IMG/VR virus record: IMGVR_UViG_3300017714_000017
Location: 1 to 48,517 of that record
Strand: one strand, 5' to 3'
DNA length: 48,517 nt
DNA from: a virus
Position numbers and translations under genes: made by a program. The number at the start of each line of letters is the position of its first letter. The first letter of the stretch is position 1. The notes beneath the pieces are model-generated. The model was not told the DNA's origin, ran no database searches, and was given only the letters and a program-made list of their open reading frames with translations. Positions 12,604 to 48,517 of the stretch are shown here, piece after piece.

Positions 12604-13377
12604 ATGCCAATTAAAGCAAAAGTTACGAGTGCAGAATTTGATTCTTTGCCTGAAGGAACCAAGTCTCTTTATGTAAAAGCAGGCGATGATTACAAGCTAG
12701 ACATTGCGGGAGGCTATTTGCTTGACAATGACCCTGCCGCACTTCTAAACGCAAAAAATCATGAGGTTGAAAAGCGTAAAGCTGTCGAGGCTGAGTTAAA
12801 AGCTATTAAAGACAAGGCTGAGGGTGAAAAGCAAAAAATAAAACTTGAAGCCGAACAAAAAGCCAGAAAAGCGGCATTGGAAAATCAAGACGTTGCTGCA
12901 TTGCATGCAGATTTGCAAAATCAAATTAAGCAAATGCAAACTACTCATGCTCAAGAACTTCAAGCACAAAAAGCTGAAATTCAAAGACAACAAAAGTTAG
13001 TTAAAGAAACAAAGTTAAATCAAGTTGCATCTGACATTGCAACAAAAATTTCAACCACGCCGAGTCTGTTATCCCCGCTGGTAATGCAGCGACTCGATGT
13101 GGACGAACTGGGGAATGTTATTGCTATGGATAAATCGGGAAATATAAATCCCAATTTCACAATAGATAACTTGGAGAAAGAGTTCGTTGACAACAATGAA
13201 TTCGCTCCTATAATTATTGGCAGTAAAGCAAGCGGAGCCAGTGGCTCGACATCTTCAGGTTCTCCAGTGGAGACAATGGGGAAGAAATGGAGTGATTTCT
13301 CGTCGGAGCAGTTGGTACAACTTCGCAAAGAGAATCCCTCCGGTTATCAAGAACTAAAAGCAACTCGCGTAGAGTAG
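12604..13377 (+). CDS. Capsid scaffolding protein
   Basis: A 257-residue protein between portal and capsid genes. Residues about 45-145 form a long, highly charged coiled coil (Glu/Lys/Ala/Gln-rich). A Ser/Gly linker (about 205-225) leads to a short C-terminal helix (WSDFSSEQLVQLRKENPSGYQELKATRVE). Both position and architecture match scaffolding proteins of HK97-fold phages. No separate prohead protease gene was seen. Confidence 0.85.
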   Translation: MPIKAKVTSAEFDSLPEGTKSLYVKAGDDYKLDIAGGYLLDNDPAALLNAKNHEVEKRKAVEAELKAIKDKAEGEKQKIKLEAEQKARKAALENQDVAALHADLQNQIKQMQTTHAQELQAQKAEIQRQQKLVKETKLNQVASDIATKISTTPSLLSPLVMQRLDVDELGNVIAMDKSGNINPNFTIDNLEKEFVDNNEFAPIIIGSKASGASGSTSSGSPVETMGKKWSDFSSEQLVQLRKENPSGYQELKATRVE

Positions 13378-28535: not shown

Positions 28536-28806
28536 GCTTGTTGATTGTTATTAAGTTAGATTTCAGTAAAGCCTTAGCCATCTGTGTGGCTGTTTGTTCA
28601 ACAAATTCTTCACTAAAACAAACGTAATTACTAGCATGCAACATTTCGTGAATAAACGTATCTAAAACATTTAAATCGGATAGATCGGTTCGGACGCGAA
28701 TTGTTTTTGTTTTGTTGTTACAATCTCCCCAGGTTTTCTTGGGCATGTCGGGCTTGCTAACAAAATTTACTGTCCAGAGTTCATCATTCCCTAACTTTAT
28801 TTGCAT
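28525..28806 (-). CDS. HExxH metallopeptidase-like small protein (SprT-like)
   Basis: A 93-residue protein with FIHEMLHAS (HExxH at 53-57), followed by a second helix carrying the acidic EEFVEQTA segment that supplies the third ligand in related proteins. Small proteins of this shape are common near phage replication genes and have no agreed role. Overlaps the methyltransferase 3' end by 23 bases, so expression is coupled. No zinc ribbon, unlike full-length SprT. Confidence 0.75.
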   Translation of the reverse strand: MQIKLGNDELWTVNFVSKPDMPKKTWGDCNNKTKTIRVRTDLSDLNVLDTFIHEMLHASNYVCFSEEFVEQTATQMAKALLKSNLITINKHEL

Positions 28807-29737
28807 CTTGATCCACCGTTTCGCCTTTTAATCGTTCATTTAAAATTAAATAAGCTAATGCTGCTTGCTGGGGAACTACTCCGTTTCCCAAGAGTCGAGT
28901 TCGGTCAATCCTGTGGGTACACCCATCAACCACTCTATCCAGTTTGGGTTCAGATAACCACTGCCGCTTAAATGCCTCACGGCATCTGGCAAGCTGTTCG
29001 TCAAAGGATTTCGTTTTTTCTTGGCAAGTGTTTCCGGTTTTACTGCACCCTTGTAATCTCTTGCCGCTGGGGTTGGAAGGTTTGCAATTTGATAAATTTT
29101 GATTGCTACTGGGTTGACCTGTTCCCTTAAATTTGACGGTCGCTTTCGTCCTTTGCGAACTGTTGTTGCTTGTCGGTAAATTGTTTCTGGGCTTTTCTGA
29201 GAAAGGTGATCCATTGTGTTTGGAGTTGCCCAAGATGAAGACTCTTTTTCTTTGGTGCGGCGCGCCGACTTCTGCCGCCGAGAATATTCCCCACGTTGTA
29301 TCGTAACCTGCTGATTCCAAGTCACAGATAACTTGCTCAAGTCCTCTGTTAATGTGTCCTTCGACGTTTTCAAAGAAGCATTGAACAGGTCTAATTGTTT
29401 GAATTTGCTGCAAGATGAAAGGCCATAAGTGTCTTGGGTCTTCTGTTCCAAGCTGGTGTCCTGCAACTGAGAATGGCTGGCATGGATAGCCCCCAGTGAA
29501 GATGTCCACTTTTCCTCGAAATCTTTTTCCTGGGAAGGTTTTAGCATTCGTCCAAACAGGTGCGGGAGCCATTTTATCCGACTCCATTTTTTGCACCAAG
29601 TTTGCAATGACGTATGCTTCGATTTCCACGCAAGCGACGACTCGATGGTCGATTCCAGCAAGTTCAAGTCCTCTTTCAAGTCCACCGTATCCGGTACAAA
29701 AGCTGACGACACTTTTAAGTTTTTTGGTATTACCCAC
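28784..29737 (-). CDS. dcm: C5-cytosine DNA methyltransferase
   Basis: A 317-residue enzyme methylating cytosine C5. Motif I is FCTGYGGLE, motif IV GGYPCQPFS with catalytic Cys86, motif VI ENVEG (123-127), motif VIII QRKRVFIL (162-169) and motif X GNGVVP (284-289). The target recognition stretch between VIII and X is short (about 170-270), rich in Ser, Asn and Lys. Start is GTG 29737; the near ATG belongs to another frame. There is no restriction endonuclease beside it, so protection of phage DNA is the likely role. Confidence 0.92.
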   Translation of the reverse strand: MGNTKKLKSVVSFCTGYGGLERGLELAGIDHRVVACVEIEAYVIANLVQKMESDKMAPAPVWTNAKTFPGKRFRGKVDIFTGGYPCQPFSVAGHQLGTEDPRHLWPFILQQIQTIRPVQCFFENVEGHINRGLEQVICDLESAGYDTTWGIFSAAEVGAPHQRKRVFILGNSKHNGSPFSEKPRNNLPTSNNSSQRTKATVKFKGTGQPSSNQNLSNCKPSNPSGKRLQGCSKTGNTCQEKTKSFDEQLARCREAFKRQWLSEPKLDRVVDGCTHRIDRTRLLGNGVVPQQAALAYLILNERLKGETVDQDANKVRE

Positions 29738-35615: not shown

Positions 35616-36320
35616 CTATACCTCTTCTTTCATTCGTGAAAAAATTGAATTTAGATTGGCGTATTCTAGTTCGCCAAACTTACCGTACCTACTTTTTGCC
35701 GCAATTTGCGGAGTTCGCATTGTGCGAAAAACTCTTTTCTTTTCCTGACTTTCGTCATTTGGATCAACGTAAATTTCCATATGGAAAACTTCGCCAACAA
35801 GATAATCAAGCATTCCCTGAATTTGTTTTCCAGGGAAAGCTGGGTTCCAAATTAAACCACCTGTTGTGTGGTCTTGAATTTTTTCTTCTTTACAAAGAAA
35901 AACTACATTGAAACCAATTTCTGACAACGCACGAAAATCGTGAATTATTTGCATAGCCCAATCAGCTAACTCTCCGTAAGCTTTCATTGGATTTTTAAAA
36001 CTACTCTTGTTAGTTCTTAACCAAAGTAAACCTAACTCAGTTAAATCATCTAAAATGATCGTCTTAAAACCTTCGCCTTTTGGATAACCAAAATTATTTA
36101 ATCTTGCCATTTCCAAACAATTTTTTATATCTTCAGGTTTTCTAACTGATAAAAACGGTACGTCAAAAGATCTTAGGCTACTTAGCCCCATATCAACGTC
36201 AATAACAACGGCATCGCTGCAATCTTGCGGGTTAGCTAAGAAAGTTTTACCAACACCTGCTGCGCCGTAAATTAAAACTACAGGACTAACTTTTGAATTT
36301 TTAGTCGTTTGTATTTGCAT
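35616..36320 (-). CDS. Sak4-like RecA-fold ATPase
   Basis: A 234-residue ATPase. Walker A GAAGVGKT (19-26) and Walker B TIILDD (87-92) stand in a short RecA core; FPGK--QGMLDYLVGEVF and a late TP...A..R are typical of the AAA_24/Sak4 group, which acts with an SSB partner in single-strand annealing. The DUF669 protein next door is the usual partner. Start ATG 36320 lies inside the csrA 3' end (20-base overlap). Confidence 0.88.
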   Translation of the reverse strand: MQIQTTKNSKVSPVVLIYGAAGVGKTFLANPQDCSDAVVIDVDMGLSSLRSFDVPFLSVRKPEDIKNCLEMARLNNFGYPKGEGFKTIILDDLTELGLLWLRTNKSSFKNPMKAYGELADWAMQIIHDFRALSEIGFNVVFLCKEEKIQDHTTGGLIWNPAFPGKQIQGMLDYLVGEVFHMEIYVDPNDESQEKKRVFRTMRTPQIAAKSRYGKFGELEYANLNSIFSRMKEEV

Positions 36321-36471
36321 TTTTTTCCTCGTAATCGTTTCTCCAAACTTTTATTTCTTTTGGGGCATCAATTCCAATTTTTACTTGATTGCCTTGGACT
36401 CTTACAACTGTTAAGACAATGTCCTGACCAATCGTAATTTTATCATTCTCTTTTCTTGAGATAACTAACAT
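36301..36471 (-). CDS. csrA: CsrA/RsmA-type RNA-binding translational regulator
   Basis: A 56-residue protein. It begins MLVISRKENDKITIGQ and continues IVLTVVRVQGNQVKIGID, APKEIKVWRNDYEE, following the CsrA pattern along the whole length. The two RNA-contacting zones are kept: the N-terminal LVISR strand and the WRNDY segment, with the essential Arg (44 in E. coli CsrA). CsrA dimers bind GGA in hairpin loops or at Shine-Dalgarno sites and usually repress translation. Its own start has GGAGG (GGAGGAACCGATG), so autoregulation is possible. It is co-transcribed with the recombination genes. Confidence 0.93.
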   Translation of the reverse strand: MLVISRKENDKITIGQDIVLTVVRVQGNQVKIGIDAPKEIKVWRNDYEEKNANTND

Positions 36472-39848: not shown

Positions 39849-40192
39849 CTGAAGTCCTCCCAAGATTTCCACTCAATCGAATGATTATTTTCTCTGACGT
39901 AATTTAAAAGCATTGTCTCAAAAGCTTTTTGCGATTCGTCAGTCAAAAAACAATCAGAGTTTCCAAGAGCAGTTACGATTGATGCGGAATTAATCTCCAC
40001 ATCGAGAATCTCGATTTCATCAGCGGTCGCTGGATACCCAGGGTCCCCGTTGCTTAGATAGCGAACTTCAGGATCGCCTGAAATTAATTGAAGTTCAAAG
40101 ACACAATCAAATTCTAGCGTGGGATCACCGTTGTCATTCCAGATCGCAAAGCAGTCCCAATGTTCTTCCACAATTTTAATATCTTTTTTCAT
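39845..40192 (-). CDS. Hypothetical protein
   Basis: A 115-residue acidic protein with PGYPATADEIEILDVEI in the middle, an arrangement seen in other phage orphans. Shares TAATG with the upstream gene and ATGA with the downstream peptide, so it belongs to the same translational unit. No assigned family. Confidence 0.68.
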   Translation of the reverse strand: MKKDIKIVEEHWDCFAIWNDNGDPTLEFDCVFELQLISGDPEVRYLSNGDPGYPATADEIEILDVEINSASIVTALGNSDCFLTDESQKAFETMLLNYVRENNHSIEWKSWEDFR

Positions 40193-40446
40193 TAGTAGAT
40201 CTCCGGTAAATAAGTTGTAACGACTTCGCCTGACTTCTTAATGCTTCCAGCTTTAGTAAATTCGTGAACAGCAACGCCTGCGCCGTTACCTTCGTCGTCC
40301 CGTTGGATAAAGATTGCCGATCCATCATCTAACAAAAGATAAGGAAAATTATCGGAGGTGTATCCACAAGAAATAATCTTTTTGCCCTTCACCCTTTTTT
40401 CAAATGGTTTGGCAAATTTTTTCTTGTCATCGTCCAAACTAATCAT
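40192..40446 (-). CDS. Hypothetical protein
   Basis: An 84-residue basic-to-neutral protein from ATG 40446 (AAGGA six bases upstream; a GTG at 40449 is the alternative). Small beta-type domain with SCGYTSDNFPYLLLDDGSA. Single-base overlaps with both neighbours. Function unknown. Confidence 0.65.
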   Translation of the reverse strand: MISLDDDKKKFAKPFEKRVKGKKIISCGYTSDNFPYLLLDDGSAIFIQRDDEGNGAGVAVHEFTKAGSIKKSGEVVTTYLPEIY

Positions 40447-40631
40447 CACAGTTCCTTTCGGTAAGTTTCACATTGTTCAACACCATCGCTGTCGGTCACA
40501 AACAACCGAGTTTCGATCATGTCTTCGTTCAAAATAAAAGCCTTGCACCATCGCCTAGCGTTAGAAATGGTGCGAAAGCAACTAATTGGCAAAGCATCGA
40601 CCTTGCCGTTTACATACTCAATTTGAAGCAC
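40446..40631 (-). CDS. Small hypothetical protein
   Basis: A 61-residue protein with GTG start at 40631 and GGAG upstream. Sequence looks ordered (VNGKVDALPISCFRTISNARRWCKAF); two Cys, no metal motif. It couples to the next gene through TGATG. Unknown function. Confidence 0.6.
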   Translation of the reverse strand: MLQIEYVNGKVDALPISCFRTISNARRWCKAFILNEDMIETRLFVTDSDGVEQCETYRKEL

Positions 40632-40645
40632 AGTTTTTCTCCAAT

Positions 40646-40936
40646 CTAAAGTTCAAAACAAAGAATAAAATGCAGTAGGTTTTGCCATCTACTTTCGTGA
40701 ATCTTATTTAAAATTCCTCGATCACATCTCCAATGTTTTCGATCATCGCAAATGGTGTAAGCGCACAACGAATGTTCGTCGTGTATCTGCCAATTTTCTA
40801 AGATCAACAATTTTTTCTGATCGGCAAAAGCCTTGAGATCAACAAAAAATTCGCAACCGCAATCGTTTAACATTTCCTCTTCTTGGGGCGTAGGTTCAAA
40901 TTCCCAAAGGTACAGTTTCGGTGAAAGCATTATCAT
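40646..40936 (-). CDS. Hypothetical protein
   Basis: A 96-residue protein from ATG 40936, which shares one base with the upstream stop (TAATG); a TTG 12 bases earlier is less likely. Contains PTPQEEEMLNDCGCEFF and several further Cys/His (HSLCAYTICDDRKHWRCD), possibly a metal site. No known family. Confidence 0.63.
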   Translation of the reverse strand: MIMLSPKLYLWEFEPTPQEEEMLNDCGCEFFVDLKAFADQKKLLILENWQIHDEHSLCAYTICDDRKHWRCDRGILNKIHESRWQNLLHFILCFEL

Positions 40937-41196
40937 TAAAAAACCCAATACAAAAAATAAACAAAAAGAGAGATGAAAATTACGGTAGTTGCGATCATGA
41001 ACGCTCTATCGCTCTGCTCTCGATCATTTTCAATCAGATCGATCATTTCCATGCATTTCTTAACAGTGCGACATGAGCCAGTTCTAGGGTCTTCGCCACC
41101 ATCGTAATCGTCGTGAACAAAATCAAAGTCAGGACTCAACTTAGGATCTCCAGGTTTCGGGCAATATCGAATTTCATAGTTTTTATATTTAATCAT
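40936..41196 (-). CDS. Membrane protein, C-tail anchored
   Basis: An 86-residue protein. The first 64 residues are acidic and soluble (GDPKLSPDFDFVHDDYDGGEDPRTGSCRT broken by two Cys); residues about 65-86 (AFMIATTVIFISLFVYFLYW) are a terminal transmembrane helix. Good GAGGAATAGAAATG start. The soluble part would face the cytoplasm. Unknown function. Confidence 0.65.
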   Translation of the reverse strand: MIKYKNYEIRYCPKPGDPKLSPDFDFVHDDYDGGEDPRTGSCRTVKKCMEMIDLIENDREQSDRAFMIATTVIFISLFVYFLYWVF

Positions 41197-41198
41197 TT

Positions 41199-41552
41199 CT
41201 ATTCCTCAATTAAAAAAAGTGAACCTTCATCTATTGCTCGAACGATACGAGTTCTGACGCGAAATGACTGGTCGCAGGTATGCTCTGATTCCGAATCAGA
41301 CACTTCGTGACGCACTGACCAAATTACTTTAATAGATCTGCGAGCTACCCCCATTGGGATATACTCTCTGCCAAAAAACAAATCAGTTTGATTGCCATCC
41401 CCCCAAATTTCATTTGTAGCAGGCAATGGAGTCTCAAAATATTTCACCGTTTTTGACGACAAAGCACCGTTAATAAGTCGAATAACTACTTCAACTCCGT
41501 CATCTTTAGCTGCTAAACTTTTTAGTTCGTTCAGAGATTCAATTTTCTTCAT
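41199..41552 (-). CDS. Hypothetical protein
   Basis: A 117-residue protein from ATG 41552 (GAGG six bases upstream); 14-base overlap with the zinc-ribbon gene upstream. Beta-rich with IKVIWSVRHEVSDSESEHTCDQSF and an acidic end. No recognised family. Confidence 0.65.
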   Translation of the reverse strand: MKKIESLNELKSLAAKDDGVEVVIRLINGALSSKTVKYFETPLPATNEIWGDGNQTDLFFGREYIPMGVARRSIKVIWSVRHEVSDSESEHTCDQSFRVRTRIVRAIDEGSLFLIEE

Positions 41553-42165
41553 TGCATTCCTCACATTCATTTTCAAATAACAATTTCCCACATCCCTTAC
41601 ATCGATTAATTTTATGCAAAACTTTGATCAAATTATTGTTTCGATATTTGCGATCAACCTCTCGATCTTCGCCGTTCACAAACTCTCTCAGTTCCATGTG
41701 GCCGCCATGCGTAACAAGAATGAACACGCTTTTTTGATGACATAGTTGAAACATTTCTTCTTCGCATCCGTCAGGATTTTCTAAACGAGACAAAATTCCG
41801 ATATCAGAGTGAGCTTTATAAATGATCTTTAATCTTGCCAGAACATTCATTTCATATTCCATTGATTTGAAACCCCATTTAAAAAATTCTTGCAAATCAT
41901 CTGTTTCAAATATGGTTTGCGATTCAAAAATTTCGCTCTCTCTGACAGCGGTATATCTTTTTGTCGATTGGCTCAAAAATAATCGCCTTTGAACCGGATC
42001 TTCGTGATCAACAAAAACACGCAAGCAATGCCCATCGTCCAACTTTGAATCTTTAAAAACAAAAGAGGGGCAGCAATCTTTGCACCATGAAACATCTTCA
42101 AACATGCCGCTATGAAAATGCTCTGGAACATCAATGTCTGGAAATTCTTCACTGTGTCGATTCAT
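41539..42165 (-). CDS. Hypothetical protein with C-terminal zinc ribbon
   Basis: A 208-residue protein. WCKDCCPSF lies near residue 28; the last 25 residues contain CKGCGKLLFENECEECNE, a likely zinc ribbon. The central part has ordered helical and strand segments without known enzyme motif (a HGGHMELREFVNG stretch near 150). Good GAGG start. It might bind DNA, RNA or a host protein. Confidence 0.68.
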   Translation of the reverse strand: MNRHSEEFPDIDVPEHFHSGMFEDVSWCKDCCPSFVFKDSKLDDGHCLRVFVDHEDPVQRRLFLSQSTKRYTAVRESEIFESQTIFETDDLQEFFKWGFKSMEYEMNVLARLKIIYKAHSDIGILSRLENPDGCEEEMFQLCHQKSVFILVTHGGHMELREFVNGEDREVDRKYRNNNLIKVLHKINRCKGCGKLLFENECEECNEEN

Positions 42166-42242
42166 CTTTTGACCTCACTGTTAAAACTAATAAACACAAG
42201 GACGCACCCACCAGGATTCAGTGGATGCGTGGCTGGTGGCGA
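42166..42242 (-). other. Intergenic hairpin, weak terminator candidate
   Basis: Within this short gap the arms at 42204-42213 and 42223-42232 (ACGCA-CCAC against GTGG-TGCGT, one mismatch) form a hairpin on the minus strand. There is only a weak, broken T-run afterwards. Could slow transcription between the two gene groups. Confidence 0.4.
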
Positions 42243-42623
42243 TTACTTTTTTACTCTGTCAGCATAGGGAGGCTTGTGGATCGGTTTAGCCTTTGCAAAT
42301 CGCAATGGATTTTGACAACCCCACTCCCTACCTTCTTTGCTCAGATTTGAGAGATCGCTGACTCGCTCGATTTTGATCGATGATCCAAAACGAGCTTGCA
42401 ACCGTTCTTGCATTCCTTCTGTGAAATTTTCCGCTGAGGGAAAAGCAATCAAATTTTCGTTATCGTCATCGTCAAATGCACGCTCCGCGAACCATTCTTT
42501 CAATTCGTAACGATCTTTAAATTGAAGATAAAAATCCCGTGGCTGATTAAATATCGAGATCAAATGTCTCGAACCATCGCCAATTTTAATTTCCATGAAA
42601 TCAAGTGTTATTCGCACGCTCAT
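42243..42623 (-). CDS. Hypothetical protein
   Basis: A 126-residue protein, ATG in an ATGA overlap with the gene upstream and GGGAG before it. It has ordered N-terminal strands (VRITLDFMEIKIGDGSRHLI), a Glu/Asp-rich helix (about 40-55) and a basic C-terminal end. No assigned family. Confidence 0.65.
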   Translation of the reverse strand: MSVRITLDFMEIKIGDGSRHLISIFNQPRDFYLQFKDRYELKEWFAERAFDDDDNENLIAFPSAENFTEGMQERLQARFGSSIKIERVSDLSNLSKEGREWGCQNPLRFAKAKPIHKPPYADRVKK

Positions 42624-43306
42624 TTGCTCTCTCCCGTCTTAAAAAGTAAAGTTACAAGGGTTGTCAGTTTTTCCAATTTGGAAGTTCTGAAAGCAGTACC
42701 GCCACCAGAGAACCCGATAAGGTTTTGCCGGTATTGATCCGATCCGGTTCTCATTTTGTCGTTCAGAGGATCGCCCAGATCGCGTATGTCGACGCATTGA
42801 GGAACTCCGTTGAGTTCATAGGGTACGAATCCAAAGGTCATTGTGCGGCCATTTGAGAGCCTGCAAGAGATCGTTGAGACACCATCTGGAACATCGACGC
42901 ACAAATGATCGCAATCATTCCACAAAGCATATCCCCCGGACTCAGCATTTGCTGAAGAAAGACGCTGTGATCGAATCTTTGGCGATTCTTTGGGTGGTTC
43001 AATGTCCAAAAAATATCCAAATGGTATTTGGCAGGTAGCCTTTTCAGGATCGAATTTCCAAGAATTTAAATTGTGATATTCTTGGGGTAAATATTCCGTT
43101 GAAAAATTCTCAACGCATTCTTGTAAAGAAAAATCACTCCAAGAATCATCTAAAATAATCGAATCTTGGCTTGACCCTTGATCGGCTGCGGCAAAATAGA
43201 GGCGGGCAGTGTAGCCAGAGTTGGAGCCATCACCAATGTCCCAGCCAAGATGGATGGTGACCTCCGTTGCGTTCGGGGGAAAATAAGCTTTTAATTTTTT
43301 GGACAT
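42620..43306 (-). CDS. Hypothetical protein
   Basis: A 228-residue protein from ATG 43306 with AAGGA upstream. The frame is open 126 bases further, but that part only translates the low-complexity tract and is not credible. Contains a jelly-roll-like beta pattern early (ATEVTIHLGWDIGDGSNSGYTARLY) and a Cys/His cluster (NDCDHLCVDV). No catalytic motif identified. Overlaps the following gene by ATGA. Confidence 0.68.
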   Translation of the reverse strand: MSKKLKAYFPPNATEVTIHLGWDIGDGSNSGYTARLYFAAADQGSSQDSIILDDSWSDFSLQECVENFSTEYLPQEYHNLNSWKFDPEKATCQIPFGYFLDIEPPKESPKIRSQRLSSANAESGGYALWNDCDHLCVDVPDGVSTISCRLSNGRTMTFGFVPYELNGVPQCVDIRDLGDPLNDKMRTGSDQYRQNLIGFSGGGTAFRTSKLEKLTTLVTLLFKTGESK

Positions 43307-43318
43307 GCGACAAATCCT

Positions 43319-43420
43319 TTTAAAACAAATCAAAACAAATTGAAACAAAACAAAAACAAAACGGATTTGAAACAAAACAAATCCAAACAAAACAGAAACA
43401 AAACAAAACAGAAACAAGAC
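43319..43420. repeat. Low-complexity AAACAAAAC tract in the leader of the 43306 gene
   Basis: Many imperfect copies of GAAACAAAAC / AAACAAAT; the minus-strand transcript would be almost only U and G with rare C or A for about 100 bases directly ahead of a Shine-Dalgarno. Such unstructured U-rich leaders favour ribosomal protein S1 binding. No reading frame of substance. Confidence 0.8.
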
Positions 43421-43458
43421 AAAAAAAAACAAACCCGAAACAAGATCGAGACGGGCTT
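43421..43458 (-). terminator. Terminator after the coiled-coil gene
   Basis: On the minus strand the arms AAGCCCG (43452-43458) and CGGGTTT (43431-43437) pair with one G-U; then a G and nine T follow (43421-43430). It lies 14 bases after the 43472 stop and separates this gene from the 43306 transcript. Confidence 0.7.
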
Positions 43459-43471
43459 GAATTAAGAAAGA

Positions 43472-43810
43472 TCAATTGACAACATCTCTTAACCGTTGAG
43501 CAATTTTGATCAGATCATCTTTGATGTAGAAACCATTAGCGGTCAACTTTTTGATTTCAAGATTCAAACTGTTAACTTTCTCAGTCAGAGAATCTTTCTG
43601 ATCGTAAAGCTCTAGAAGTTCGATTCTTAATTTTTTTAGTTCGGAATCGTAATCTCGAAAAAACGCAAATGACATGTCAGAGTTAAGTTGCATCTCTAAC
43701 ATCTTGAGAGAATCGCTCAAAATATCTCCAAGCAGAGTTTCGACCAATTGATTATTGATCAAGTTTTTCAAAATTGTTAATTGTTCATCTTTAGAAATTT
43801 GTGCAGACAT
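43472..43810 (-). CDS. Coiled-coil hypothetical protein
   Basis: A 112-residue protein, entirely helical. Residues about 45-90 form a leucine-rich coiled coil (LKKLRIELLELYDQKDSLTEKVNSLNLEIKKL). Good GAGG ahead of the ATG. It lies alone between two terminators, with a hexanucleotide repeat tract in its leader. Unknown function. Confidence 0.68.
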   Translation of the reverse strand: MSAQISKDEQLTILKNLINNQLVETLLGDILSDSLKMLEMQLNSDMSFAFFRDYDSELKKLRIELLELYDQKDSLTEKVNSLNLEIKKLTANGFYIKDDLIKIAQRLRDVVN

Positions 43811-43841
43811 TTTTATTCCTCATTGAAAAAAAAAGTTAAGG

Positions 43842-43917
<76 letters not shown>

Positions 43918-43954
43918 TATCCAGGATTCGTTGGGCCTGGCCCCATATTGATTG

Positions 43955-43991
43955 AAAAAAACGCAACACCCGAACGGATCAAGGTGCTGCG
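43955..43991 (-). terminator. Terminator closing the leader-element gene block
   Basis: On the minus strand a nine-base stem (arms 43983-43991 and 43962-43970, one G-U) with a 12-base loop is followed by seven T (43955-43961). It lies 53 bases after the last gene of the block and isolates it from the 43810 gene. Confidence 0.82.
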
Positions 43992-44043
43992 CTCGCTCTC
44001 TCACAAGCTAAATTCTTGTGATCTTGTGGGTAATTGTGGGTGA

Positions 44044-44337
44044 TTAATCAAACAAGCTTAAACCGTGAAGCACCTTCAAACTGTTTGAGCAGTTTTTCAA
44101 CGGTTTGTATCCTTCAATGATCACCTGATCTGTTTTCAATCTGCACCAAGAGCAGTTCATTAATTTTGCCTCGATCGATCCCGTGGATCTTTGGAGCTTA
44201 ACTTGTGCGTCCCGAATGCATTGTGATTTTGTAGTTTTATCCTTTCCACGTCCGAGCTTCCCAGATAATTCGAGCTTCAACATTCGATCGTAAAGTTTTA
44301 AGATCTGTTGATCTTCCGATTCTGTCCATTGTGACAT
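44044..44337 (-). CDS. Myb/SANT-like small DNA-binding protein
   Basis: A 97-residue protein from ATG 44337, which is preceded by the shared leader (AAGGA ten bases upstream); the frame upstream only reads through the leader. N-terminus SQWTESEDQQILKLYDRML looks like a Myb/SANT helix, and RSTGSIEAKLMNCSWCR resembles a motif found at the N-terminus of some bacterial restriction-type and DUF3883 proteins. Might recognise DNA; role unknown. Confidence 0.68.
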   Translation of the reverse strand: MSQWTESEDQQILKLYDRMLKLELSGKLGRGKDKTTKSQCIRDAQVKLQRSTGSIEAKLMNCSWCRLKTDQVIIEGYKPLKNCSNSLKVLHGLSLFD

Positions 44338-44415
44338 AATTGGTAATTCCTTGTGAGAGAGTAAAAACAACCAAGAGCGATCAGAGATCAATTCTCTGAG
44401 CGCGTTTGGTGGTTT
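44338..44415 (-). promoter_or_regulatory. Leader element copy 1 (variable-stem hairpin plus ribosome-binding block)
   Basis: In mRNA sense: outer arm ACCAA (44406-44410), GCG (44401-44403), variable arm TCAGAG (44394-44399), loop, CTCTGA (44381-44386), CGC (44377-44379), TTGGT (44370-44374), a T-rich run, CTCTCTCACAAGGAATTACC and then the ATG. The inner stem differs from all other copies yet pairs perfectly. Confidence 0.85.
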
Positions 44416-44425
44416 TCGGGTGAAA

Positions 44426-45208
44426 TCAGTACCCAATGAAAAAACCCTCAGATCGTTTGATTATGTCGATCTGTTTTGATCTGGATCGAGGCAATTTAAC
44501 CTTCAATCCGACGATCACTCCAACGGGATCGGTAAATCTGAGATCTGTTTGATCCCCATCGATAACCTTGATCCCGTTGTAAGAATCTGGAATTCCAGCT
44601 TTCAAAGTTTTCGAATCGAAAAACGGGATAGCAACATTAACCCCGTTTGAAACGTAGTTTTCAACATCGATCCATTTTGTGCGCTCGTTGAATGAATACG
44701 TTTGATGGACGGGATTAGATCCATTCATCATCGATTCGATTTTCGATTTAATTTTCGTATAACCGTAAAATCGCCAATGGCTAAAATCGCGAAACAATTG
44801 GGGAAACATTTTGTGCCAATTGAGATCTGATAAAATATCGGATCTAAAGGCAACGGTTTTTCCAAGTTTACGAGCCTTCCGATCTATCCGGTGGCAATGC
44901 GCCTCCAGAATCGACCAAAACAAATCCCGATCCGAAAACAGTAATTTTGTCCGATTGATCCGCGCCCGCAAAATAACGGGAACAAATTCGGATCGGCCAA
45001 AATTTCCCAAACAACCTGAACGGCATTTTGCCGTGGACATTGTGCAAACATTGTGACCCGATAATTTAGCGGGTGCTAAACTGATCCCGCAATTGTAAAA
45101 CTGAGAATCAATCGATTTTGCTAATTTTGGATTTCCGTTTGGTTCTGTGATCAGATCCGAAAAACCAAAATCTCGGGATAGATCCCGAGCGCGTTTTATC
45201 GTTAACAT
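44426..45208 (-). CDS. GP88-family protein
   Basis: A 260-residue protein from ATG 45208 behind its own leader copy. Pattern: NPKLAKS, FYNCGISLAPAKLSGHNVCTMSTAKCRSGCLGNFG (several segments of Cys-rich GP88 signature), RINRTKLLF, VAFRSDILSDLNWHKMF, WRFYGYTKIKSKI, NGVNVAIPF, VIDGDQTDLRF and a final VIVGLKVK. This follows the 'gene product 88' family first named in mycobacteriophages, common in phages and of unknown biochemical role; the conserved Cys suggest a metal centre. Confidence 0.85.
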   Translation of the reverse strand: MLTIKRARDLSRDFGFSDLITEPNGNPKLAKSIDSQFYNCGISLAPAKLSGHNVCTMSTAKCRSGCLGNFGRSEFVPVILRARINRTKLLFSDRDLFWSILEAHCHRIDRKARKLGKTVAFRSDILSDLNWHKMFPQLFRDFSHWRFYGYTKIKSKIESMMNGSNPVHQTYSFNERTKWIDVENYVSNGVNVAIPFFDSKTLKAGIPDSYNGIKVIDGDQTDLRFTDPVGVIVGLKVKLPRSRSKQIDIIKRSEGFFIGY

Positions 45209-45290
45209 AATTCGTAATTCCTTGTGAGAGAGAGAGAGTAAAACAACCAAGAGCGATCAGATCCCTAATCTGAGCGCGTTTGGTGGTTCT
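45209..45290 (-). promoter_or_regulatory. Leader element copy 2
   Basis: Same order as copy 1. Variable stem: TCAGAT (45268-45273 region) pairing with ATCTGA (45257-45262) around a five-base loop; GCG/CGC and CCAA/TTGG arms conserved. A GA-repeat expansion (GAGAGAGAGAGAG) occurs between the hairpin and the AAGGAATTAC block, lengthening the spacer. Confidence 0.85.
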
Positions 45291-45375
45291 ATTGCCGAAA
45301 CATATCAAAGCAAATCGCAGCACCTGAAAACAGGAGGGCGAAATAGACGAGCAGGATAAAAATATCGATCACCAT
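45289..45375 (-). CDS. 28-residue membrane peptide
   Basis: A short frame MVIDIFILLVYFALLFSGAA ending CFDMFRQ. AAGGAGGAATA precedes the ATG, a better ribosome site than the leader-borne ones. It starts nine bases after the stop of the 45385 gene, and its stop touches the next leader copy. One membrane helix fills it. Small phage membrane peptides of this size are often toxic or inhibitory, but no function can be read. Confidence 0.6.
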   Translation of the reverse strand: MVIDIFILLVYFALLFSGAAICFDMFRQ

Positions 45376-45384
45376 TATTCCTCC

Positions 45385-45609
45385 TTACTGAGATTTTAAA
45401 ACATCGATGACACAGACTTCTGTGTCATTTTTGTATCGAACATCGAGCCAGACATAACCTAAGTTTTCGAGATCCTCTTTATTGATCGGTTTGCCCGAAT
45501 CAACATCGATAAAATCTAGATTCGATTTGTAATCTGCTCGAATCTGTTTTTGGTTTTTGTAGATTCGACCAAAAGCAGCGCGGGCGCTAATTTTGTTTGA
45601 TGCAAACAT
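45385..45609 (-). CDS. Small hypothetical protein
   Basis: A 74-residue basic protein from ATG 45609 behind leader copy 3. N-terminal helix (SARAAFGRIYKNQKQIRADYK), then strands ending WLDVRYKNDTEVCVIDVL. Unknown family. The upstream in-frame extension only reads through the leader. Confidence 0.65.
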   Translation of the reverse strand: MFASNKISARAAFGRIYKNQKQIRADYKSNLDFIDVDSGKPINKEDLENLGYVWLDVRYKNDTEVCVIDVLKSQ

Positions 45610-45690
45610 TTTGTAATTCCTTGTGAGAGTAAGAGTAAAAACAACCAAGAGCGACCACCATCTAGGATGGTGATCGCGTTTGGTGGTTCT
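45610..45690 (-). promoter_or_regulatory. Leader element copy 3
   Basis: Variable arms ATCACCAT and ATGGTGGT around loop CCTAG (45654-45674) with one mismatch pair; GCG/CGC and CCAA/TTGG arms and the TTTTTAC...CTCACAAGGAATTAC block are conserved. The inner stem is different from copies 1 and 2. Confidence 0.85.
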
Positions 45691-45696
45691 CAGTGA

Positions 45697-46023
45697 TCAA
45701 GCGTAATTGTGTGAAAGATCTTCACAGATCCTTTCATAATTGTGATTAGCGTATGTATCACGATTAAATCGAGCGCGATCAATTCGAGAATAAAATTCTT
45801 TGATTGCAAGATCCAGATCTGAAACGTAGCACCCATTATATCGGGTGATGTAATTAGACTGATCTGTGATCCCGTCCATGCATTCAGTGTGAACGATATA
45901 CCGATGAACTTGATCGGGTCGATCGTAAATGACAAATCGAACCGGATAGCAACTTGGATCAACTTTGATGATCTCAGAAACCAAAAGATAGTTAGTGATA
46001 TTGCATTTTGTGCCAGTGATCAT
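45697..46023 (-). CDS. Hypothetical protein
   Basis: A 108-residue protein from ATG 46023, behind leader copy 4. Mixed alpha/beta sequence with VRFVIYDRPDQVHRYIVH and a DLDLAIKEFYSRID helix; three Cys without spacing typical of zinc. No recognised family. Confidence 0.65.
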   Translation of the reverse strand: MITGTKCNITNYLLVSEIIKVDPSCYPVRFVIYDRPDQVHRYIVHTECMDGITDQSNYITRYNGCYVSDLDLAIKEFYSRIDRARFNRDTYANHNYERICEDLSHNYA

Positions 46024-46108
46024 AATTGGTAATTCCTTGTGAGAGAGTAAAAAGATAAAACAACCAAGAGCGATCACCCAGAATCGGGTGAGCGCGTTTG
46101 GTGGTTCT
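46024..46108 (-). promoter_or_regulatory. Leader element copy 4
   Basis: Variable stem TCACCC (46086-46091) / GGGTGA (46074-46079) with a six-base loop; GCG/CGC and CCAA/TTGG arms conserved. Spacer to the AAGGAATTACCAATTATG block carries a short insertion (ATCTTTT). Again a distinct inner stem. Confidence 0.85.
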
Positions 46109-46391
46109 AAGATCTGTTTGATTTGATCAAATCAAGTTTTTCATTGCAGTAATCTTGAACACCCAACAGATCGCCAAAATTAAAATAAGATCCACCGTAA
46201 GGATCTAAATCGTCAACCTGTAAACGGTTTAAGTAATACTTACCAGATCCAGAGCGATCGAGAGAGCCAATCAGAACCATTAGAGAATCCAGATCCTGTT
46301 GATCCTCATGAATAAGAATCGGCAAGCCTGAAGACTCAATACAACCGGTAGTTGATAGTTCGCCATTACGTTGGAGAAATAAAGTTGCCAT
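46107..46391 (-). CDS. Hypothetical protein, first gene of the leader-element block
   Basis: A 94-residue acidic protein from ATG 46391 behind leader copy 5. Starts ATLFLQRNGELSTTGCIE and contains EDQQDLDSLMVLIGSLDRSGSGKYYLNRLQ, ending in a basic helix. Unknown function; its transcript would begin in the non-coding region to the right. Confidence 0.65.
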   Translation of the reverse strand: MATLFLQRNGELSTTGCIESSGLPILIHEDQQDLDSLMVLIGSLDRSGSGKYYLNRLQVDDLDPYGGSYFNFGDLLGVQDYCNEKLDLIKSNRS

Positions 46392-46474
46392 TGAAAATTT
46401 TCCTTGTGAGAGAGTAAAAGTAAAACAACCAATCACACTCACCCAAAATCGGGTGAGCGTTGTTGGTGGTTCTA
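46392..46474 (-). promoter_or_regulatory. Leader element copy 5 (most divergent)
   Basis: The hairpin ACGCTCACCC / GGGTGAGTGT (46451-46460 and 46435-46444) keeps pairing through a G-U; flanks CCAAC... and ATTGG retain the outer arms although CGCTCTTGG has changed. The ribosome block is shortened (CTCTCACAAGGAAAATTTTC). It is the first copy met by transcription. Confidence 0.78.
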
Positions 46475-47035
46475 CCCACAAGTGAGAGCTAAATTTTCAA
46501 AGATCAGTAATTCGGATAACCGAAATATCCAACAGTAGTTAGAGCATAGATCTCCAACCCTGTATATAGGTATCGGCATATAATTTGTATTTATATAGGA
46601 TTATTTTGAGATACTTGTTTACGGTCAAAATCGTATCGAGAAAAACCACCGTTTTTGCCCATGATTTCAATACGTAATCACGTTACGCAATGTGATCACG
46701 CAAAGTGTGAGAGATCCGGTTAAATAACTCTCTCTCTCTCTCTCTGATTACTTGGTATTACTTTGATCACGAATTGCATTCTTGCATGGTTTCATGTGGG
46801 TGATTTTGGTCGTTATCGGTGGTCGTAAATCGGCCAATTTTGCTGAAAATCGCATCCTCTCAGATCGCCATAAATGGCTATTCAAGGCCGGATCTCAAAA
46901 TGCATACGATATGCCGCAATCGATGCCGATCGTGCGATCTGATCGAAATGGCCTATTTTTAGTGTTGATAATTCCAACCGTAAACCGTCTATATGATGTT
47001 TTACGGTTTATATTTTCGCACTAATTTTGAAATTC

Positions 47036-48336: not shown

Positions 48337-48517
48337 GCAACTTGCCAAGTGCAATACAGAGCATGGTCATCAATGTGCAATCTTTTGCTGGGCAGCGAAG
48401 CGGGGTCATACTGATCCTCGCTACAAAATGTTGTTTGCAGTGCCTAACGGTGGCGAACGACATAAGGTGGTTGCCGCAAAGATGAAAGCAGAGGGCGCGA
48501 GAAAGGGAGTGCCTGAC
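48326..48517 (+). CDS. VRR-NUC nuclease, 5' part (continues at base 1)
   Basis: ATG 48326 lies in the last codons of the SNase-like gene. The frame MSPEQLAKCNTEHGHQ continues into the repeat and on from base 1 through 327. It supplies the N-terminal E12/H15/Q16 part missing from the left copy, so the real protein is 131 residues. Bases from 48395 duplicate the left end. Confidence 0.9.
   Translation, partial: MSPEQLAKCNTEHGHQCAIFCWAAKRGHTDPRYKMLFAVPNGGERHKVVAAKMKAEGARKGVPD
48395..48517. repeat. Terminal direct repeat, right copy
   Basis: Identical to bases 1-123. See the left copy; the two together show closure of the genome. Confidence 0.95.

Follow-up and report, generated by a model that had tools for sequence, protein, structure and literature searches.

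Hairpin leaders with compensated stems precede five unrelated genes of a tailed phage

Start-associated repeat families are known in several phage groups, the best-known case being the start-associated sequences (SAS) and extended start-associated sequences (ESAS) of cluster K mycobacteriophages. In these phages, a conserved ribosome-binding block marks selected starts in the non-structural arm and an inverted repeat lies just upstream; according to published reports, RNA pairing is not supported by the 17-bp inverted repeats of ESAS (PMC3203893), and SigA-like promoters occur within the repeats (PMC11373665). The early RNase III sites of T7 constitute a family of irregular hairpins in the early operon, located at stop codons, with stems that differ yet stay paired, while the early operons of lambdoid phages contain intrinsic terminators overcome by N or put RNA. 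In T4-type phages, PeSL (promoter early stem-loop) cassettes place stem-loops between early genes and could aid gene shuffling. The leader family described here precedes five unrelated genes, and its pairing is clearly maintained both among the copies of one genome and in a related phage.

The window analyzed is the whole of an IMG/VR virus contig (48,517 nucleotides). Its ends form a perfect direct repeat of 123 bases (1-123 and 48395-48517), and its map is complete (48,394 unique bases, circularly closed), although the record is classed as linear; a 131-aa ORF spans the junction of the terminal repeat. The presence of portal, scaffold, major head, and tape-measure genes together with DNA polymerase, helicase, and primase genes indicates a tailed phage. 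No tRNA genes were found in the window. The primase shares 38-41% identity with its counterparts in Septimatrevirus-like isolates, and the only viral contigs close to the phage by this protein are L006, L007, and L008 (70-73% identical).

Five leader copies of about 80-90 bases each are located at 44335-46472, all on the minus strand and solely upstream of five consecutive non-paralogous genes (Table 1); as the map is complete, they represent the full set in the genome. The positions given in the initial annotation were confirmed by an arm-gap-arm pattern scan, which returned five minus-strand matches, none on the forward strand and none with a reversed-pattern control. The 20-base start block was matched four times (0.00 expected) and the 15-base left arm six times, including the five real copies (1.07 expected). 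Each leader has the orientation of its gene and consists of the hairpin, a U/C-rich linker of 12-19 nt, the AAGGA motif, and an ATG 7-10 nt further on; hairpin and ATG are 27-34 nt apart throughout, and in the internal copies 0-9 nt separate the beginning of the leader from the preceding gene's stop codon. The proposed association of the element with start codons holds for every copy. The proteins encoded behind the leaders display no significant mutual similarity, and only one of them could be assigned to a family (GP88, PF17338).

Some details of the earlier description had to be narrowed. The sequences GAACCACCAAACGCG and CGCTCTTGGTTG, proposed as conserved blocks, are exact in copies 2-4, whereas copy 1 begins with AAACC and copy 5 contains GAACCACCAACAACG...GTGTGATTGG as well as a diverged start block (AAGGAAAATTTTCAATG). 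The outer GCG/CGC pairs, thought to be constant, are changed to ACG/UGU in copy 5. Finally, a leader had been attributed to every small gene of the block, which is correct for the five genes but not for a 28-codon ORF that has a ribosome-binding site of its own.

Table 1. Positions of the leaders, the genes behind them, and other features of the window discussed in the text
Feature	Position	Strand	Remarks
Sigma-70-like promoter	46600..46628	-	TTGACC-17-AATAAT, 10 of 12; only one just above or within the block; consensus match, not proof
Hairpin, copy 5	46423..46472	-	before first gene of leftward operon; inner stem CGCTCACCC/GGGTGAGTG; E 8.9e-14 with covariance model R1
Linker, Shine-Dalgarno AAGGA, and ATG, copy 5	46389..46422	-	
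Gene behind copy 5	46107..46391	-	94 aa, no family
Hairpin, copy 4	46058..46107	-	starts within TAG stop codon of upstream gene
Linker, Shine-Dalgarno AAGGA, and ATG, copy 4	46021..46057	-	
Gene behind copy 4	45697..46023	-	108 aa, no family
Hairpin, copy 3	45639..45689	-	inner stem TCACCAT/ATGGTGG; of the four internal hairpins, the strongest
Linker, Shine-Dalgarno AAGGA, and ATG, copy 3	45607..45638	-	
Gene behind copy 3	45385..45609	-	74 aa, no family
28-codon ORF	45289..45375	-	likely membrane peptide; own GGAGG, no hairpin leader; stop overlaps copy 2
Hairpin, copy 2	45241..45289	-	inner stem TCAGAT/ATCTGA; weakest
Linker, Shine-Dalgarno AAGGA, and ATG, copy 2	45206..45240	-	
Gene behind copy 2, GP88 family protein	44426..45208	-	PF17338, E 2.2e-22; phrog_1617
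Hairpin, copy 1	44365..44415	-	inner stem TCAGAG/CTCTGA
Linker, Shine-Dalgarno AAGGA, and ATG, copy 1	44335..44364	-	
Gene behind copy 1	44044..44337	-	97 aa, no family
Strong intrinsic terminator	43955..43991	-	follows the fifth gene; TTTTTTT after stem GCAGCACC/GGGTGTTGC; score +22.6
CsrA family gene	36301..36471	-	56 aa, candidate regulator; PF02599, E 4.4e-21

The hairpin comprises 23 stacked levels including mismatches, i.e., about two helical turns. In all five copies, four pairs and a C-U mismatch are followed by five pairs, an internal loop (2x2), and another 10-11 levels. Pairing extends to the outer arms GAAC/GUUU, which the invariant C-U mismatch separates from ACCAA/UUGGU. At the base of the inner stem UCA/UGA is common to the copies, and the innermost three pairs vary, the innermost one occurring as C-G, A-U, G-C, and U-A. 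Folding energies lie 3.0-6.2 SD below those of dinucleotide shuffles (z -3.0 to -6.2). Over the five copies, 96.8% of the cells are paired and both sides have changed in 5 of the 19 pairs; neither the covariation score nor the percentage of paired cells was reached by any of 500 shuffles, a statistic that is strong but comes from five related sequences, which are not independent events. Sliding the partner by one base reduced pairing to 40-43%. The coordinated change of the inner arms reported in the initial annotation is thus borne out, and the comparison supports conservation of the folded form rather than of the letters. Template switching is able to create compensated stems in one step; the covariation therefore shows that a palindrome was kept, and not by itself that RNA was selected. 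The G-U wobble in the mRNA sense was considered as an indicator of the strand and rejected because of A-C oppositions in the internal loop and the mixed strand energies: folding energy favors neither strand, and wobble mismatches are present in both senses.

A covariance model built from the five copies retrieved one further member, at 12898-12982 of L006, scoring 29.9 bits (E 0.0011, 176 kb searched); no more than 20.8 bits was reached anywhere in a further 1.37 Mb of DNA, mostly chosen for carrying similar arms. The match spans the full length of the model and ends at the ATG of a GP88-like gene, the same position as that of copy 2; the L006 contig stops five bases past the homologue, with upstream copies there beyond view. 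When L006 is added, the double-changed pairs rise to eight, one of which lies in the outer stem; the C-U mismatch persists. The proposed search of related phages has thus yielded a start-linked homologue with additional compensation. The GP88-like genes behind the two homologous leaders (12181-12900 in L006) encode proteins only 19% identical, compared with 73% for the primases of the two phages, which suggests that the gene was exchanged beneath a kept leader; judging from these sequences, genes appear to have been swapped under one fixed leader.

Elsewhere in the searched collections the family occurs once, in this relative. DNA pattern scans for the arms in viral and genome contigs were negative or yielded arm matches attributable to chance or to coding sequence. 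No relative was found among viral contigs with GP88 as the query or among isolated phages by nucleotide search, and no Rfam family matched the window above its gathering score. A scan of viral contigs for the start block gave a single 19-nt match, shared by two contigs, where the gene behind it is unrelated and has no hairpin. The 19 bases (CTCTCTCACAAGGAATTAC) are identical in both (L010 511-529 and L011, minus strand, 357-339) and precede an ATG, by chance or as a common ribosome-binding context.

Regarding layout, ESAS are the nearest look-alike, as was initially noted, with an unrelated sequence. Unlike SAS/ESAS, the leaders have covarying pairing, no promoter-like match inside, and no SAS motif, and membership in this group was rejected. 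The 13-bp SAS sequence GGGATAGGAGCCC at the ribosome-binding site gave only 3-mismatch matches in the window, at chance level and located elsewhere. In Anaya, one and the same sequence, TTGACATGCATACAG...CTGTATGCAT, recurs in the ESAS copies with a TTGACA element, in agreement with the reported lack of RNA pairing (PMC3203893) and the SigA-like promoters (PMC11373665), while the inner arms of the leaders vary in a compensated manner. The layout is as close to the early RNase III sites of T7 as to a leaky terminator or attenuator; these sites are of unrelated sequence and, unlike the leaders, have neither the UUGUUUU tract nor a conserved start block. Lambdoid terminators share with the leaders a hairpin and U-tract before early genes and a strong terminator inside the operon; here, however, one homologous cassette including the ribosome-binding site is present five times, and several copies score weakly as terminators. 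Neither a nut, N, or put counterpart nor an antiterminator gene was identified in the window phage. PeSLs differ by including an early promoter, which was not found in the leaders. In the homologous arm of the Septimatrevirus-like phages DLP2 and LPPA15 (L100 and L101), several early genes likewise have repeated leaders; these are similar by score and were rejected as relatives, being repeated TTGAC-type promoters without the shared hairpin. Their promoter leaders contain a conserved GAACCATCGAAACG after the -10 element that faintly resembles GAACCACCAAACG in the window. Integron attC sites, with arms conserved outside and variable inside, were dismissed since the core GTTRRRY is absent by eye.

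The leader family is real, compensated, and start-linked, and its layout has precedents; its function we infer. The genes behind the leaders are probably early and the first five of a leftward operon; no promoter-like match was found on the minus strand between 46600 and 43780, hence none inside the leaders. RNA-level punctuation of this operon is the most probable function. To a leaky intrinsic terminator or attenuator, the likeliest mechanism, we give a probability of about 0.38, with T7-like RNase III processing as the main rival. A transcribed cassette (hairpin, U/pyrimidine-rich linker, and standard ribosome-binding site) would precede each gene; the hairpin would fold at or just past the stop codon of the upstream gene, with UUGUUUU next, where part of the polymerases might halt and the rest read on. 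Stopping would be avoided when the polymerase is made terminator-resistant or when a terminating ribosome covers the 5' arm, and the ribosome-binding site in the leader would provide separate initiation for each gene. Transcription of the leader, termination, and an antitermination or ribosome switch are presumed.

The TTGTTTT tract is invariant in all five copies, and the L006 homologue is U-rich there. Terminator scores, for which the best sub-hairpin with variable borders was used (relative to fixed borders, two copies rise above zero), are +7.8 for copy 3, +5.4 for copy 5, -1.2 for copy 4, -7.8 for copy 1, and -17.2 for copy 2. The L006 homologue reaches +15.9, and elsewhere in its operon two intergenic hairpins score +12.8 and +51.2. 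For reference, the T7 early terminator TE scores +3.2 and the T7 processing sites -8.5 to -31.7. Copy scores around that of TE and for the most part higher than at the T7 processing sites, together with the invariant U-tract, make a leaky terminator or attenuator the first choice, and the strong terminator after the fifth gene, with no sigma-70-like promoter directly upstream of the genes past it, fits read-through or antitermination. Copies 1 and 2 score like T7 processing sites, so strong termination is probably not what was conserved. The A/T-rich base of the stem speaks against a terminator, as do two features that a terminator can do without, GAAC/GUUU pairing at the outer end and the constant C-U mismatch.

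In a rather unlikely but serious alternative, the irregular hairpin would be cut by an RNase III-type enzyme, or would simply protect RNA ends, so that a polycistronic transcript would yield single-gene messages with defined ends as at the T7 early R sites. The matching sites of T7 (R0.3, R0.5, R1, R1.1, and R1.3) are irregular two-tier hairpins with changed stems at or just past stop codons; they precede the first early gene and sit between later ones, and R0.3 and R0.5 lie some 20-25 nt upstream of the following start. As candidate sites, the leaders likewise place an irregular duplex of about two turns between early cistrons, with internal mismatches conserved (the C-U one also in L006). 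Their sequence, however, has no similarity to the T7 sites, processing leaves the conserved U-tract unexplained, and hairpin length by itself is weak evidence. Improbable, to a clearly greater degree, is a plug-in RNA cassette, in which a phage-encoded factor would read the hairpin shape and the conserved mismatch and switch unrelated early genes that are freely exchangeable beneath it. Marginally less probable still would be an RNA operator, with the hairpin and ACAAGGA serving as the binding site of an RNA-binding protein, encoded by phage or host, through which the translation of all five genes is co-regulated. CsrA, suggested as a regulator in the initial annotation, is one candidate: it is encoded here and in L006-L008, and ACAAGGA, identical to the core of the CsrA consensus, is located at the leader starts and absent from all other listed start sites of the genome; moreover, the outer arms are conserved in sequence while the inner stems vary. 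The five copies share descent, however, so the match counts once. CsrA targets have GGA at the Shine-Dalgarno sequence and a second GGA, usually in a hairpin loop; the first is present in five of five leaders and the second in one (the hairpin of copy 2), and the L006 homologue carries ACAATGAGG in place of ACAAGGA, though L006 encodes CsrA. The sequences do not support the CsrA site suggested initially; a CsrA operator has weak support.

Doubtful to the same extent as an RNA operator is a site acting at the DNA level, either a palindrome recognized by a DNA-binding protein or a cruciform, in line with proposals for the ESAS repeats. The CCAA and TTGG half-sites are spaced almost uniformly (29-31 bp), and the indifference of folding energy and wobble mismatches to the strand would be expected of it, but the inner letters, which a DNA site recognized by sequence would retain, instead change with compensation; besides, the element neither contains nor adjoins a promoter-like match, and its orientation always follows the gene. 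Least probable of all would be a recombination scaffold without regulatory function, in which the repeats serve as shared borders for swapping unrelated genes and the palindromes are tidied by template-switch mutation. Homologous leaders before non-paralogous genes, the diverged GP88-like genes under one leader, and stems obtainable in a single template-switching step would all fit, yet the scaffold does not account for the restriction of the copies to positions ahead of start codons, each with its ribosome-binding site intact, or for the conserved mismatch and U-tract. With five natural variants and one homologue, material is available for a direct test of whether the leaders end, cut, or regulate transcripts.

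A few other features of the arm were observed. A second type of intergenic hairpin with AATCCTGG in or near the loop occurs at 42202-42230 of the window and at 12955, 12146, and 11048 (minus strand) of L006; these hairpins precede genes with a CARTGAGG-type start block, and the motif is present six times in that arm of L006. The density of GATC sites at 40000-46900 (113 in 6.9 kb) is about four times that of the remaining genome (155 in 40 kb), an excess that is absent in L006 and L008 and mostly explained by frequent GAT and ATC; the phage encodes a C5 cytosine methylase (28784-29737). The leader of the gene at 43472-43810 contains a long TTTTCG/TTTCGA tandem (43850-43915), and leaders in L008 have similar fast-changing repeats.
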